DNA from: a virus
Strand: one strand, 5' to 3'
IMG/VR virus record: IMGVR_UViG_3300021356_000204
Span: 1 to 21,108 of that record
DNA: 21,108 nucleotides
This document shows, in pieces, positions 13,664-21,108 of the stretch. The notes under the pieces are model-generated. The model did not search any database, was not told the origin of the DNA, and saw only the letters and a program-made list of their open reading frames with translations. The translations under genes were made by a program, and so were the position numbers. The stretch's first letter is position 1, and each line of letters begins with the position of its first letter.

Positions 13664-16510
13664 TTACCAATTATTTTGTACTATATTTACCCACTCATAT
13701 GTTGATGCGCCAGTTTGCATACACATATCTACATAACTATTATTACCAGAAGTTCTATATCTTAATGCTCCAACATTTGACGAGGAAGCTGAGTCTGAAT
13801 CATCTGCAACTTTTACGCTTCCATTAAAAGCACCATTACCATTTACATAAAACGGTATCGTAGGTTCGGTTGAAAAACTAGTGCCCAATCTAAATCTATT
13901 AGCCGGATAGCCAGTAGGCGTTCTGGAGTCATTAATTTCAATTCCTGAAAATCTTTGCGCGTCAGAGCCCCAGTCTCTACTCTCTACTCTTATATTTGAA
14001 GAGTGGTCATCAACTTGAACTACGTGTAGTATATTGCTTTTATGACCAGAAGGATTAATACGGTGAGCTGCATGCATTGCAACACCCCAATTTCCGTCAA
14101 TGGAATTATAAACACCAACATAACCACCCCCTAAATAATCACCATCAAAATCAAAAGTTTTATTATAAGTGCCCGGCGCGGTTGGGCTTTCTGAATATGC
14201 TGTTATATAATTAGGATTTTCCCACTGCATTCTTTTACCAGTAGGCGTGCCTATTAATATAGGATTAGATGCTGCTTCTACGGTTAGTTTTCTGGCTGGG
14301 TTAGTCGCCCCAATCCCAACTTTACCGTCATTAATTATTCTAATTGCTTCATTAGAATCGCTGTCCATAATGCGGGTTGCATACCCTTCACCATCCCAAT
14401 CGCCTAAAGTAAGAAGATCTGCGCCAAACTGGGCCCAAGGTTTGTTATCTATTAGATAGCCGTCTCCACCATTAGCATCAATTTCACCAGCAACTTCTAG
14501 AGCACGACCGGGTTGATTAGTCCTAATACCAAGACTGAGAGTTGAGTTATCCCAATATAAATTATTATTACCTGCTATACTGCTAGCGCTATCAAAAAAG
14601 CTTACCTGCCCAGCAGCGCCAGAACCTGTTATCTGATTTGTGTTTTGGGCATCAACGTATGCTTTAGTAGCCGCATCTTGCGCGTCTGTAGGATCAGTAA
14701 CATTTGTAACTTTACCGCCTACTTCTAATGCGCCTGTTAGCGTGGCGTTGCCATTGCTGTAATCTATTGTTAATCTTGGCGTGCCTGCTAAATTTACTAT
14801 AAAATTTTCATAATTACCATAAGATATATAAGAAGACGTATACGGGACAGCGACGCTTGCGGCTTGTAACTTAACGTTTTCTCCATTACCCCACTGCAAA
14901 TATCCTTGTGGAGGAGCAGTCCCGTTGTTATAAGTAGAAAAAATAGTATTCGAACCCTGCGTGTTAGTTTTGTTTAAATACAATTGCCCGCCGCTAGTAC
15001 CGCCGTCAATTCCAGTTCTCCCGTAAACTAATAATTTTCTGCCAGAGTAGTTAGTCGTTCCCCCTATAATAACATTTTTATTAACACCATCAATGTTTAC
15101 AGCCGTAGAGCTATCTATTACAAGGTTAAAATCATAAGACGTAGTTCTTGGTAACTCAATTTTTGAATTGCCGGTTTCTAATCTAACACCTTCATAGCCC
15201 GCTGTTATTGAATTAATCCAGGTTAACTTACCACCTGTTCCATAATTACCTTGATAAGTTGCACCTATTCCCCAAACCGGAACACTATTGCCTGTGTTAT
15301 TTAAAATTAACTCAGGGTTACCTGCCGCTATTGTAATATCAGATCCACTCTCAGACATTATAGAGTCTGTTATTGTATCTGTATCATACCACTTTGTTAT
15401 TGTGCCTGCAGTGCCAGATCCATCTACAGTTACGCCTGGAGTTTCAATTATATTACCATTAGCATCTACTGCTAATGTTTGAGTTGCTGTCCCTGCAAAC
15501 GTTCCGCTGCCATAGCTATTGAGCTGCACCGCCCCAGTTGATTCTGTAAATGTAATTGAGCTTGATTCAATGGTATTACCTGTTGAACCAACCCATATTT
15601 TACCAGGTGTTAAATTAGGTATATCGTTTGTTCTAAGTATAGATGATACAACAAACGTTCCGTCGTTAGATGTACTTACTCTACCAACCTTACCCATATT
15701 TTGAATAAGATTGCTTCCGGTTGGTTTTGTTAAAGTAAGTGCGGCTCCAGTTGTACCGCTTGCTTTTACATATATAACATCGTTAGCTAAAGGCGTTTGG
15801 CCGTCTATTGGCGAAGTAATTAAATTTCTCAATTTACCTGTAACAACCGCAAAGCCTTCTTCGTTTATTCCTAAATCTTGTTTTAATAATCCTACAGCAG
15901 GCATTTTTGCCGCGTTAGAAGCATCAGCTAGTTGAACCTCTAATCTGCCGGAAGCGCCTACGGATCCAGATATATACACAGGGTCACCTTTTGTTAAGGC
16001 TGATCCTTGCAAGTTTTTAACAGGAACTTCTACAACCTCTGCAGACCCTACGGCTATATCAGTTAAATCTGTAAATGTAAGCTCTCCATTTGCATCTGAT
16101 ACCAAAATTTGATCAGCGTCGCCCAGTGTATTAGTTGTATCTTTTATAGGGCCGTTTAAATAAAGTGTGCCATTTTGTGTTATTAAGTCCGCACTTTCGT
16201 CACCTAAATTTACATTGCCATTAAAATCCGCAGTACCCTCGACTTCTATATTTGTGCTAAAGGTAGCATCACTGGTTACAGTCATAGCTCCCGCTACTCC
16301 TATGCTGGCTCCGCTTTGTGTTATTATAGAATCAGTAAGAGCCACTCCCGTAGCGTCAAACATTGGGATAGTATACGGCGTGCCGTTTATAAAATCATCA
16401 AATAGATTATCAACTGTAATATGTATGTTTTGGTTACCGTCGTACCCAACTAAATACATACCCGCCGTGTGGTCGGTCCTTAAATTAAACTGTGAAAACT
16501 TTATTGCCAT
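13664..16510 (-). CDS. Long tail fibre or spike protein
   Basis: This is the largest protein in the window, 948 residues. Residues 1-41 form a small N-terminal domain (MAIKFSQF..., MYLVGYDG, ITVDNLFDDFI) shared in outline with the two upstream fibre proteins. Residues 155-312 form a compact conserved module: VPVKNLQGSALTKGDPVYIS, VGLLKQDL, LRNLITSP, NLIQNMGKVGRVS and ILRTNDIPNLTPGKIWVG. The shaft then has repeats such as TDSIITQSG (59-67) and TDSIMSESG (381-389), the phage-fibre motif ATKAYVDAQ at 614-622 and 'GIGATNPARKLTVE'-type blocks. The C-terminus ends EWVNIVQNNW and lacks a peptidase S74 chaperone domain. It would be trimeric and bind the host surface. Confidence 0.9.
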   Translation of the reverse strand: MAIKFSQFNLRTDHTAGMYLVGYDGNQNIHITVDNLFDDFINGTPYTIPMFDATGVALTDSIITQSGASIGVAGAMTVTSDATFSTNIEVEGTADFNGNVNLGDESADLITQNGTLYLNGPIKDTTNTLGDADQILVSDANGELTFTDLTDIAVGSAEVVEVPVKNLQGSALTKGDPVYISGSVGASGRLEVQLADASNAAKMPAVGLLKQDLGINEEGFAVVTGKLRNLITSPIDGQTPLANDVIYVKASGTTGAALTLTKPTGSNLIQNMGKVGRVSTSNDGTFVVSSILRTNDIPNLTPGKIWVGSTGNTIESSSITFTESTGAVQLNSYGSGTFAGTATQTLAVDANGNIIETPGVTVDGSGTAGTITKWYDTDTITDSIMSESGSDITIAAGNPELILNNTGNSVPVWGIGATYQGNYGTGGKLTWINSITAGYEGVRLETGNSKIELPRTTSYDFNLVIDSSTAVNIDGVNKNVIIGGTTNYSGRKLLVYGRTGIDGGTSGGQLYLNKTNTQGSNTIFSTYNNGTAPPQGYLQWGNGENVKLQAASVAVPYTSSYISYGNYENFIVNLAGTPRLTIDYSNGNATLTGALEVGGKVTNVTDPTDAQDAATKAYVDAQNTNQITGSGAAGQVSFFDSASSIAGNNNLYWDNSTLSLGIRTNQPGRALEVAGEIDANGGDGYLIDNKPWAQFGADLLTLGDWDGEGYATRIMDSDSNEAIRIINDGKVGIGATNPARKLTVEAASNPILIGTPTGKRMQWENPNYITAYSESPTAPGTYNKTFDFDGDYLGGGYVGVYNSIDGNWGVAMHAAHRINPSGHKSNILHVVQVDDHSSNIRVESRDWGSDAQRFSGIEINDSRTPTGYPANRFRLGTSFSTEPTIPFYVNGNGAFNGSVKVADDSDSASSSNVGALRYRTSGNNSYVDMCMQTGASTYEWVNIVQNNW

Positions 16511-19168: not shown

Positions 19169-19411
19169 TTATTCGTTTTTTGTTCCGTTCTTACGCGGGT
19201 TCATACCGCCTCTATTCCTATGCGCAGTAACAAAAGTACCAGTATAGTGGTCATAGTCCTTGCCGTCTATATTTCTACCAGCCTTTTTAGCTGCACGGCG
19301 CTTTTTTTGGCTATCTGCTCGCTTTTTCTTGCGGTCATCACTGTTAGCATACCGCAAATCACGTTCTTTCTTACGCTTAGCCGCTGCTGGAGATAACTTT
19401 TGCTTACCCAT
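19169..19411 (-). CDS. Small basic conserved phage protein
   Basis: The 80-residue protein is dominated by Lys and Arg (SPAAAKRKKERDLRYANSDD, RKKKRADSQKKRRAAKKAGR) and ends DGKDYDHYTGTFVTAHRNRG plus GMNPRKNG. I recall short phage proteins with the same helical basic half and 'GKDYDH...NRG' end, occurring near structural genes, of unknown function. It may bind nucleic acid or be an internal virion protein. It is the first gene of the minus-strand block, with the divergent intergenic region upstream and the 446-residue fibre gene directly after its stop. The ATG at 19411 is preceded by an AT-rich leader with no Shine-Dalgarno motif. Confidence 0.8.
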   Translation of the reverse strand: MGKQKLSPAAAKRKKERDLRYANSDDRKKKRADSQKKRRAAKKAGRNIDGKDYDHYTGTFVTAHRNRGGMNPRKNGTKNE

Positions 19412-19490
19412 TTATTGCATTTTTTGTATATAATACTAATTTACACGCTTTTTACCGTTTTTACACTCCTAAAAGCGACAATAGCTACCT

Positions 19491-19520
19491 ATTATATATA
19501 CCTTAAGAGGCTAACGTCAC
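19491..19520 (-). promoter_or_regulatory. Candidate promoter for the minus-strand block
   Basis: On the minus strand GTGACG (19520-19515) and TATAAT (19496-19491) are separated by 18 bases, close to a sigma70 layout; transcription would start near 19484 and leave a leader of about 70 bases before the ATG at 19411. Bacteroidota housekeeping promoters normally have TAnnTTTG instead, so the match may be to a phage or chance AT-rich sequence. The same DNA also forms the downstream half of a plus-strand TTTACA/TATTATATAT match, so orientation is ambiguous. Confidence 0.3.
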
Positions 19521-19745
19521 ATATTTTAGGTACCAAATAATTTAAGGGGGTGTGTTTTTAAAAAAAGTGTCAGATATTTAGAGTTTTGGGGTTATATACT
19601 CATTTTTAAGTTAATATAAAAATATAAAAACGTTTAAATTTTACCCGGTTCCCCGTATTTTTTCAGGTTTTTCTAGGATTTTTTGGCTTTTTCCGAAAAC
19701 GGCGCCTGGCCTGGAAACTATGCGCGGCACACGGCAACTACCCGG

Positions 19746-19770
19746 TGCATAACCCGCAGGGTGTATAGCA
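19746..19770 (+). repeat. Hairpin ending in GTATAGCA (copy 1)
   Basis: A 25-base imperfect hairpin: arms TGC-ATA-ACCC and GGGT-TAT-GCA pair over ten positions around a GCA triloop, with two single-base bulges on the 3' side. The 3' arm contains the octamer GTATAGCA (19763-19770), which recurs four more times to the right. It is followed by TTTTACAG, which contains the TTTACA box of the first promoter-like leader. Confidence 0.6.
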
Positions 19771-19771
19771 T

Positions 19772-19811
19772 TTTACAGCCCGAGCACGGTACTACTCCGA
19801 TATTATATATG
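19772..19811 (+). promoter_or_regulatory. Promoter-like leader 1
   Basis: TTTACA (19772-19777), 21 bases, then GATATTATATATG (19799-19811). The same two boxes at exactly the same spacing precede the genes at 20191 and 20595. An AT-rich leader of 17 bases follows before the ATG at 19829. TTTACA matches five of six bases of a -35 box, but the spacing is longer than a normal sigma70 promoter. Confidence 0.55.
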
Positions 19812-19828
19812 AATTTAAAATTAAAATT

Positions 19829-19990
19829 ATGAGTTACGAATCACCGAACCGCGAGTGGCTAATAGCCGAGATAGAGTCCGAGCTGGGCAACCCGATCGAC
19901 CTGAGTGCCTGGGATACCAGCGAGCTGGAGGACATGTACAACAACCTGGTCGGGTCAATGTATAACGGAATAATCTGGAACAGATGTTAG
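19829..19990 (+). CDS. Small acidic plus-strand phage protein, 53 residues
   Basis: The frame runs from ATG 19829 to TAG 19990. The product MSYESPNREWLIAEIESELG, NPIDLSAWDTSELEDMYNNL, VGSMYNGIIWNRC is acidic and helical, and I do not recognise it. Support comes from the promoter-like leader immediately upstream, a start context (ATTATGAG) identical to the two later plus-strand genes, and strongly GC-ending codons (GAG, CTG, GAC, AAC, ACC), unlike the AT-rich minus-strand genes. The stop overlaps the next ATG region by seven bases. Small early proteins of this kind often modify the host, but nothing here shows that. Confidence 0.6.
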   Translation: MSYESPNREWLIAEIESELGNPIDLSAWDTSELEDMYNNLVGSMYNGIIWNRC

Positions 19991-20139
19991 TCCGCATTGA
20001 TAAGCGCAACTGGACTGGCAGATACACCAGCACGGTCCGACACTTCCAGGGTCAGCGCCATCTGGATAACTACCTGGCCTACATGGCTAAGCGTGAGGCT
20101 ACAACTAAAGTAACTGGAGTTGAAGTTTTACAAGACTAA
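19984..20139 (+). CDS. Small plus-strand phage protein, 51 residues
   Basis: Starting at ATG 19984, seven bases inside the preceding gene, and ending TAA 20139, the product is MLVRIDKRNWTGRYTSTVRH, FQGQRHLDNYLAYMAKREAT, TKVTGVEVLQD. The layout of a short strand with Asn-Trp, then 'HF...HLDNYLAYM' helix and a final strand resembles small phage proteins I have seen without known function. It is basic and shares the GC-ending codons of its partner, suggesting they form one unit. The opposite strand is also open here, but that product would be Cys, Pro and Arg-rich and improbable. Confidence 0.6.
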   Translation: MLVRIDKRNWTGRYTSTVRHFQGQRHLDNYLAYMAKREATTKVTGVEVLQD

Positions 20140-20166
20140 TACGAAGTAAAGTAGATAATATAAATG
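20127..20166 (+). promoter_or_regulatory. Promoter-like leader 2
   Basis: TTTACA (20127-20132), 21 bases, GATAATATAAATG (20154-20166). Over 40 bases it matches leader 3 (20535-20574) at 34 positions, including the shared block ACGAAGTAAAG. The TTTACA box lies inside the last codons of the 51-residue gene. The gene at 20191 starts 24 bases after the second box. Confidence 0.6.
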
Positions 20167-20190
20167 TATAATAAATTAAATTAAATCATT

Positions 20191-20439
20191 ATGAGTACTA
20201 AAAAGAAAGTTCAAGACCTAATCAGTAAAAGATTCATCATCCGCAAGTCGTTAATCGGCAAGGGAGTAATCGTAAGCTTCACAGACTACGATGGCAAGAC
20301 GCATCGCTACAGCCACGATAAAGTCTACGAAGGTAACAAAGAGCGCTTCGACAACATGGCGTGCTTCAAGAAGTACAAGTATTACAGCCAAACGTTCGCG
20401 CTACCTAAGTTCGTGCGAGAGATGGATGAAATCATCTAA
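20191..20439 (+). CDS. Small basic plus-strand protein, paralogue A
   Basis: The 82-residue protein is basic and probably alpha/beta: MSTKKKVQDLISKRFIIRK, SLIGKGVIVSFTDYDGKTHR, YSHDKVYEGNKERFDNMACF and KKYKYYSQTFALPKFVREMD. Its neighbour at 20595 is the same protein with about 12 differences over 73 aligned residues. I do not recognise the family; a nucleic-acid-binding or host-modifying role is possible from charge and position only. It favours C- and G-ending codons (CGC, GGC, TAC, AAG), unlike paralogue B. It has its own promoter-like leader and is followed by a structured segment and two GTATAGCA copies. Confidence 0.85.
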   Translation: MSTKKKVQDLISKRFIIRKSLIGKGVIVSFTDYDGKTHRYSHDKVYEGNKERFDNMACFKKYKYYSQTFALPKFVREMDEII

Positions 20440-20486
20440 GCTGATGCAGCCAGGGTATTAAAAGCGGTATAACCGCGCCCTGGCGC
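20440..20486 (+). other. Structured intergenic segment after paralogue A
   Basis: Several inverted repeats nest here: GCTG-ATG-CAGC (20440-20450), GCCAGGG (20449-20455) pairing with CCCTGGC (20478-20484), and inside it GCGGT-ATA-ACCGC (20464-20476). GCGCC/GGCGC (20475-20486) offers an alternative fold. There is no T-run after it, so it is not a standard intrinsic terminator. It abuts the GTATAGCA repeat pair, as do the hairpins at 19746 and 20850. Confidence 0.55.
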
Positions 20487-20506
20487 GTATAGCAACGCGT
20501 ATAGCA
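20487..20506 (+). repeat. Twenty-base repeat with two GTATAGCA units (copies 2 and 3)
   Basis: GTATAGCAACGCGTATAGCA occurs here and again, identically, at 20922-20941. It contains two GTATAGCA octamers whose starts are 12 bases apart. The flanking bases differ between the two sites, so the conserved unit is exactly this 20-mer. The role is unknown; binding site, RNA element or replication iteron are possible. Confidence 0.8.
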
Positions 20507-20534
20507 AAATCACCGTACTTAACTTGTAATTCCA

Positions 20535-20574
20535 TTTACAAACCAAACACGAAGTAAAGAAGATAATATATATG
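20535..20574 (+). promoter_or_regulatory. Promoter-like leader 3
   Basis: TTTACA (20535-20540), 21 bases, GATAATATATATG (20562-20574), with the shared ACGAAGTAAAG block between them. The gene at 20595 starts 20 bases downstream in an ATTATGAG context. Here the TTTACA box lies in non-coding sequence, which argues that its conservation in leader 2 is not caused by coding constraint. Confidence 0.6.
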
Positions 20575-20594
20575 AACATTTAAAAATAGAAATT

Positions 20595-20843
20595 ATGAGT
20601 AAAGTACAAACATTAGTAAGTAAGAGATTTATCATTAGAAAGTCACTAATCGGTAAAGGAGTAACAGTCGAGTTCAAAGACTATGACGGTAAAGTACACA
20701 AGTATTCACATGACAAAGTATATGAGTTATGTAAAGAAAGGTTTGACAACATGAAGTGTTTTCAAAAGTACAAGTACTACTCTCAAACTTTTGCACTACC
20801 TAAATTTGTAAGAGAGTTAGGTGATGAGGTTCTAGTCAAATAG
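20595..20843 (+). CDS. Small basic plus-strand protein, paralogue B
   Basis: The 82-residue protein begins MSKVQTLVSKRFIIRKSLIG, continues KGVTVEFKDYDGKVHKYSHD, KVYELCKERFDNMKCFQKYK and ends with YYSQTFALPKFVREL plus a short variable tail. Differences from paralogue A are clustered at a few surface-like positions (for example GN to LC before KERFDNM). Codons end mostly in A or T, as in the minus-strand genes, so many synonymous sites differ from paralogue A although the protein is nearly unchanged. Function is unknown. It has its own promoter-like leader and is followed by a second structured segment. Confidence 0.85.
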   Translation: MSKVQTLVSKRFIIRKSLIGKGVTVEFKDYDGKVHKYSHDKVYELCKERFDNMKCFQKYKYYSQTFALPKFVRELGDEVLVK

Positions 20844-20849
20844 AACTTC

Positions 20850-20923
20850 ACACTCGGACGGGTCTAAGAAAGTAAGAAGTGAGCTAATCTGACAGCAAGT
20901 CTCACTCGCCCTACCCCGAGTGT
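20850..20923 (+). other. Structured intergenic segment after paralogue B
   Basis: An eight-base stem ACACTCGG (20850-20857) / CCGAGTGT (20916-20923) closes a 74-base segment. GGT (20861-20863) and ACC (20913-20915) can extend it, and an inner hairpin AGTGAG (20878-20883) / CTCACT (20901-20906) has a 17-base loop. The size recalls a tRNA, but there is no T-loop sequence or D-arm, so it is not one. Its last two bases begin the 20-base GTATAGCA repeat. It may be a structured RNA or a DNA element. Confidence 0.5.
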
Positions 20924-20941
20924 ATAGCAACGCGTATAGCA
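20922..20941 (+). repeat. Twenty-base repeat with two GTATAGCA units (copies 4 and 5)
   Basis: This is an exact second copy of the 20-mer at 20487-20506, 435 bases away, again directly after a stem-loop. It is followed by GTGAAGTAAAGTAAAG, which echoes the GAAGTAAAG block of leaders 2 and 3, but no GATAWTATA box follows. Confidence 0.8.
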
Positions 20942-21108
20942 TCGGTGAAGTAAAGTAAAGAAAAGAGACACTGTTCCTAGAACAAGTATAGATCAGGTTA
21001 GTAAGCAAGAGAGTAGTAGCGAATAGTGCGACACTAGCCTGTTATATATATTTAATTAAGTACCTAATGTCACACTTTTTGACTAACCTGCACTTAGAGG
21101 TGTGGTGT
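20942..21108. other. Non-coding right edge rich in inverted repeats
   Basis: No gene is visible. A perfect nine-base inverted repeat CAGGTTAGT (20994-21002) / ACTAACCTG (21082-21090) encloses a small hairpin TAGTG-CGA-CACTA (21024-21036), a TTATATATA run (21042-21050) and CTAATGTCACA (21064-21074), a near copy of CTAACGTCACA at 19511. Another triloop hairpin TGTTC-CTA-GAACA is at 20972-20984. The segment looks regulatory or structural and may continue past the window. Confidence 0.5.

Follow-up and report, generated by a model that had tools for sequence, protein, structure and literature searches.

What is the function of a short sequence that recurs between the first small genes of an uncultured phage? 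The window, the whole stretch of DNA analysed here, is a 21-kb virus record. An earlier note on its sequence pointed to the octamer GTATAGCA attached to hairpins, and proposed a functional RNA or protein-bound DNA element rather than drift after duplication. That proposal is supported by the occurrence of the element in 41 viral contigs and by signs of selection on the site. We estimate at roughly one in two the probability that the element is a one-directional signal at which transcripts would end, with the box standing in place of the U-tract, and that it would both separate small early genes and suppress antisense RNA.

The portal, TerL and GroEL proteins of the window match phage families, and the closest named phages infect Flavobacterium, Cellulophaga, Tenacibaculum and Maribacter. 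The late genes are on the - strand, up to position 19411; from 19829 onward, the + strand carries the first of the small early genes. The end of the window falls inside the early head zone.

Copies and hairpins in the window

The five copies of GTATAGCA described between the small genes are all present on the + strand, at 19763, 20487, 20499, 20922 and 20934. The window holds seven copies, compared with 1.0 +/- 0.98 in shuffled sequences, none of which attains seven. Only one copy had been noticed elsewhere, in terL at about 5409. It is real (5410), but another exists at 14573; both are on the - strand and sense to their - strand host genes. In terL, the copy supplies the codons for V-Y-S-I within a conserved GDVYSIQ.

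Box 1 is single (GTGTATAGCAT, 19761-19771, + strand) and lies between the start of the late operon on the - strand and the first early promoter. Directly 5' of it is a weak 4-bp hairpin, ACCC-GCA-GGGT (19752-19762, + strand), in a region that folds no better than shuffled sequence (z = 0.30). The early promoter-like sequence GATATTATATATG (19799-19811, + strand), which matches the family consensus, is located 3' of the box.

At the second site, the stop codon of the gene at 20191-20439 is followed by a bulged RNA hairpin, GCCAGGGT...GCCCTGGC, with an inner GCGGT/ACCGC stem (20449-20484, + strand), and here the fold is better than in shuffles (z = -3.19). Its 3' arm ends at 20484, two bases ahead of the octamer at 20487. 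Boxes 2 and 3 are in tandem, GC-GTATAGCA-ACGC-GTATAGCA-A (20485-20507, + strand), and the GCGT/ACGC around the first octamer is able to pair. The early promoter-like GATAATATATATG (20562-20574, + strand) begins 55 nt after box 3 and precedes the gene at 20595-20843.

At the third site, a stem formed by ACACTCGG and CCGAGTGT encloses a second hairpin (20850-20923, + strand), and here folding differs only marginally from that of shuffles (z = -0.72). The 8-bp 3' arm (20916-20923) shares with box 4 the first GT of the octamer at 20922. Boxes 4 and 5 (20920-20942, + strand) repeat the 20-mer GTATAGCAACGCGTATAGCA, which is identical at 20487 and 20922, as had been reported. The octamer had also been described as always 3' of a stem-loop; this holds for the first box of each cluster, but no strong hairpin is associated with the second box of either pair.

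The genes at 20191-20439 and 20595-20843 (both + strand) encode two copies of the same 82-aa early-head protein. The early promoter-like GATAATATAAATG (20154-20166, + strand) has no preceding box and provides an internal contrast.

An 11-nt box shared by uncultured phages

The exact 20-mer GTATAGCAACGCGTATAGCA was found in 41 other contigs of IMG/VR, often in multiple copies per contig, and in no contig of the GTDB genomes. Across these relatives the stems that precede the same box are completely different in sequence while the pairing is kept, which bears out the earlier observation of differing stems beside one octamer. A gapped search recovered further lineages with other inter-box spacings, mostly 1-7 nt among true carriers. 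The carriers are a group of uncultured podoviruses of Bacteroidota, probably of flavobacteria. The box count is zero in six cultured or complete relatives.

Nine other bacterial genomes, several of them Bacteroidota, showed no clear excess of boxes over the reversed pattern; one of the nine, a MAG with 23 boxes versus 11 reversed, holds a phage-like contig. A host-derived signal was rejected on the basis of these nine genomes and the absence of the 20-mer from GTDB contigs. A literature search with the octamer returned primers, probes and loxP only, and no phage motif. In Rfam, the window gave no match at the gathering score and weak matches at chance level, and a known RNA family was rejected for this reason.

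The maps and statistics cover all or most of 25 contigs and five lineages added later, with genes called by our own hexamer script. These are about 30 metagenomic contigs of related phages, and given the common ancestry of the carriers the counts below are of non-independent events. One of the contigs, G062 (L321-L327, 129.5 kb), has two divergent units of early and late genes and resembles a fusion of two related phage genomes.

Intergenic, tandem and in-gene copies have flanks in common, with R at -2, Y at -1 and no G after the final A. The real unit is thus one asymmetric 11-nt box, RYGTATAGCAH, that serves all places. We rejected the idea that the octamer is the loop of its own hairpin (TG-TATAG-CA), as the flanks vary against pairing (for example, C at -1 and A at +8). 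The excess of T 3' of the box is only mild, and the place of a U-tract is held by the box itself.

Boxes at the head of the early operon

The same map is repeated across the 25 contigs and five further lineages. Where the early operon starts, divergently from the late one, there are three to seven intergenic boxes in the early direction; they lie after a stop codon and before the early promoter that follows, usually immediately 3' of an RNA hairpin. A GATAATA-type promoter is found within 160 nt downstream of 119 of the 147 early-direction intergenic boxes, compared with 8.4% of random positions. The distance from box to promoter is variable (median 42 nt), so a separator fits better than an activator site.

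The early promoter-like sequences have the consensus [TC]ACG[AG]-N9/10-GATAATATATATG, found in the window at 19785-19811, 20143-20166 and 20551-20574. Bacteroidota promoters have the form TAnnTTTG, which this consensus does not resemble. The sequence GATAATATA is present in 95 copies upstream of early genes in 27 contigs.

A stem of at least 5 bp ends at the first tandem box in 71% of cases, versus 25% of control positions. Antisense boxes inside genes have no hairpin association (25% versus 20% in controls). Overall, hairpins are found at 112 of 537 unique boxes, compared with 15.0 in shuffles, and their loops include 12 GNRA tetraloops (0.13 expected) and two UNCG tetraloops (0.13 expected). 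Tetraloops of this kind are a property of RNA, and the strand on which they are read is that of the box, early-sense in the head zone; the hairpin thus appears to work as RNA of the early transcript.

Like intrinsic terminators, these sites have a GC-rich RNA hairpin that follows a stop codon and precedes the next promoter; it is present 3' of genes at the first boxes of clusters and is itself followed by a fixed sequence of ~8 nt. They differ in that GTATAGCA, often in tandem, replaces the U-tract, which is not found directly after the hairpin, and in that the box also occurs alone and antisense inside genes. Conventional terminators with a hairpin and U-tract are not enriched in the window (19 versus 13.1 +/- 3.8) or in a relative (12 versus 11.0 +/- 3.1). 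Where small, singly promoted genes of the head zone end, an RNA hairpin has one to three boxes 0-4 nt further on, at the place of the U-tract. Under the transcript-ending reading, RNA polymerase would stop at the hairpin and box, or the RNA would be ended there, ahead of the next early promoter.

Promoters and stem-loops also occur together in the PeSL elements of T4-type phages, which consist of a stem-loop and an early promoter between small variable genes. To our knowledge, PeSL elements have neither a conserved box nor antisense copies in genes. A cassette for recombination or mobility has been proposed for such elements, and here the box would be a homology stretch for the shuffling of small genes. 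This would account for the presence of box, hairpin and promoter together between variable small genes in the box carriers, but it leaves unexplained both the antisense boxes inside conserved genes and the selection at synonymous sites described below, and we regard it as very improbable.

Boxes inside genes and candidate factors

The larger part of the pattern, antisense copies within early genes, lies outside the window and was invisible to the earlier note. Through the early operon, antisense boxes are located inside genes every 0.5-4 kb (maps of the 25 contigs and five further lineages). Early genes contain 108 antisense boxes, compared with 12.7 +/- 3.0 under synonymous-codon shuffling (the direction of one contig, G002, was assumed; that piece carries no boxes). 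When each gene family and position is counted once, there are 50 antisense boxes and eight sense boxes (p = 1.6e-8). In several contigs a single antisense box is located in late genes, a few kb short of the convergence of the two operons. Along the ~40 kb of the late operon, boxes that point in its own direction are very scarce.

Between homologous genes the sites come and go while their direction is kept. The octamer is retained at homologous positions in 33% of pairs of genes for proteins that are 65-80% identical, versus 9% for background 8-mers. A roughly threefold retention combined with turnover in a fixed direction is as expected for a dispersed signal under selection. In gene frames, the antisense box encodes few peptides (xAIH, xLYT), in unrelated genes (on L050, L059, L066 and other contigs), and in its most frequent frame it includes an ATA codon.

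Early genes show no depletion of sense boxes (eight versus 1.0 expected in synonymous shuffles); a box on its own therefore cannot be an absolute stop where the mRNA is translated. Sense in-gene copies mostly encode [VT]YS, chiefly VYS, as in GDVYSIQ of terL and LVYSI of an early gene that is probably thyA. The tolerance of sense copies in translated genes suggests that the box is recognized in untranslated nascent RNA. We propose that the box, placed alone and antisense about once per kb in the remaining early genes, would act there on antisense RNA only, which is not translated; that it would be read by a phage factor; and that ribosomes would shield the rare sense boxes. A weakness of the transcript-ending reading is that it calls for about ten stops per operon against antisense transcription.

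Recognition in untranslated RNA would equally explain the tolerated sense copies if the box were an RNA processing site, at which a nuclease would cut GUAUAGCA, the upstream hairpin would protect the 3' end and antisense RNAs would be destroyed. The polarity and hairpin evidence is the same for both. We consider processing improbable: we identified no candidate nuclease, and where a promoter directly follows the box only read-through RNA would contain it.

The strongest alternative is that the functional strand is the other one, with TGCTATAC[AG][CT] as a -10-only promoter of a phage sigma factor. Transcription would then start within the early genes and run along them, and from the head zone it would run toward the late operon. 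TGCTATAC resembles an extended -10, and a sigma-70 family protein is encoded in 23 of 25 large carriers and was not found in three boxless relatives (MW202828, elemoA and phi38:1). One such factor has 253 aa (L081:2877-3638, - strand), matches regions 2 and 4 above the Pfam cut-offs and resembles cyanophage proteins annotated as sigma factors. T4 gp55-type late promoters provide a precedent, being an octamer without a -35, and they likewise combine a short strand-specific word with a phage sigma factor. However, the sigma factor here has a region 4, the box is mainly in early genes and the RNA hairpins are on the opposite strand; with their RNA-type loops, these hairpins would span the start of transcription. 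We found no -35 or other second element at a fixed distance, and no start-site conservation, on examining 134 in-gene and 75 intergenic sites. The in-gene boxes are in the middle of genes rather than near their ends, the late operon is poor in boxes of its own direction, and a separate late-direction promoter in two parts, GTAGCTTT-N-GTAATTA (12 of 14 in the late direction), is present in one subgroup. We judge a promoter unlikely; if it is one, the box map is the promoter map of these phages.

A third possibility is a stoperator-like DNA site, where a phage protein such as the 82-aa early-head protein would bind the asymmetric duplex and block RNA polymerase from one side. Mycobacteriophage L5 stoperators are found at promoters and in intergenic regions and follow transcription (PMC9283540); like the box, they are short asymmetric sites, many per genome, with an orientation tied to transcription. 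In contrast to them, the box is not confined to intergenic regions or to the direction of transcription (121 antisense in-gene sites, and most in-gene boxes oppose their gene). Moreover, the intergenic boxes are accompanied by hairpins of RNA type, which a DNA roadblock does not need. The family of the 82-aa protein accompanies the boxes, with members in 20 of 25 large carriers, and was not found in the same three boxless relatives or in a phage collection, making it a candidate box factor. As a recognisable binder it was rejected, since its AlphaFold model (pLDDT 87.9) gave no fold match in the PDB, including no DNA-binding fold (best E 0.98). We consider a stoperator more doubtful still than RNA processing.

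The T7 RNA polymerase class II terminator ATCTGTT is a short asymmetric stop that needs no hairpin (PMC9624206). The box is similarly short and asymmetric, but its core, RYGTATAGCAH, is unrelated to ATCTGTT. In one near-complete carrier, no single-subunit RNA polymerase is among the best 25 of 38 Pfam and the best 25 of 106 PHROG families. A virion RNA polymerase was rejected as reader of the box because the giant late proteins have no polymerase match in the PDB and no shared DxDxD motif.

The box would thus work like a terminator, with site statistics like those of L5 stoperators or the T7 class II terminator, while departing from each in a defining feature. Taken together, the sequence comparisons suggest that it may be an undescribed "stop transcribing here" mark. 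More tentatively, these phages may use a punctuation code, in which the 11-nt word would end transcripts, would separate the first early genes when combined with hairpins, and, antisense about once per kb, would stop only antisense RNA. If the transcript-ending reading is true, the box would be a new type of terminator, one that lacks a U-tract, and would clearly exemplify a virus that encodes the suppression of antisense transcription within its own genes. Early transcription units would become easier to find in this large, uncultured group of Bacteroidota phages, and Bacteroidota genetics would gain a unidirectional stop element.

The carriers have a second conserved element, the dyad TGTGAC[AG]TTAGCC-N-GGCTAA[CT]GTC[AG]CA, located in the window at 19475-19525 and 21030-21075; its part GTGAC[AG]TTAG is on the - strand at 19511-19520 and 21064-21073. 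Its core has 61 matches across about 30 contigs, most of them located in head zones and close to an early gene of ~200 aa. The dyad may be a promoter, an operator or an origin. The late-direction promoter of the subgroup mentioned above, GTAGCTTT-N11/12-GTAATTA, is found on L055 (10125-17236), L056 (7705-15585), L084, L116 and L075. Boxless relatives have repeated words of their own: in MW202828 (L045, 13749-25158) the palindrome GTGTCGTTAACGACAC occurs 13-14 times, mostly between early genes, and in Cellulophaga phage phi38:1 (L320) AACACTATCAAA-type words are repeated some 11-14 times across the early region, in many cases immediately ahead of a start codon.
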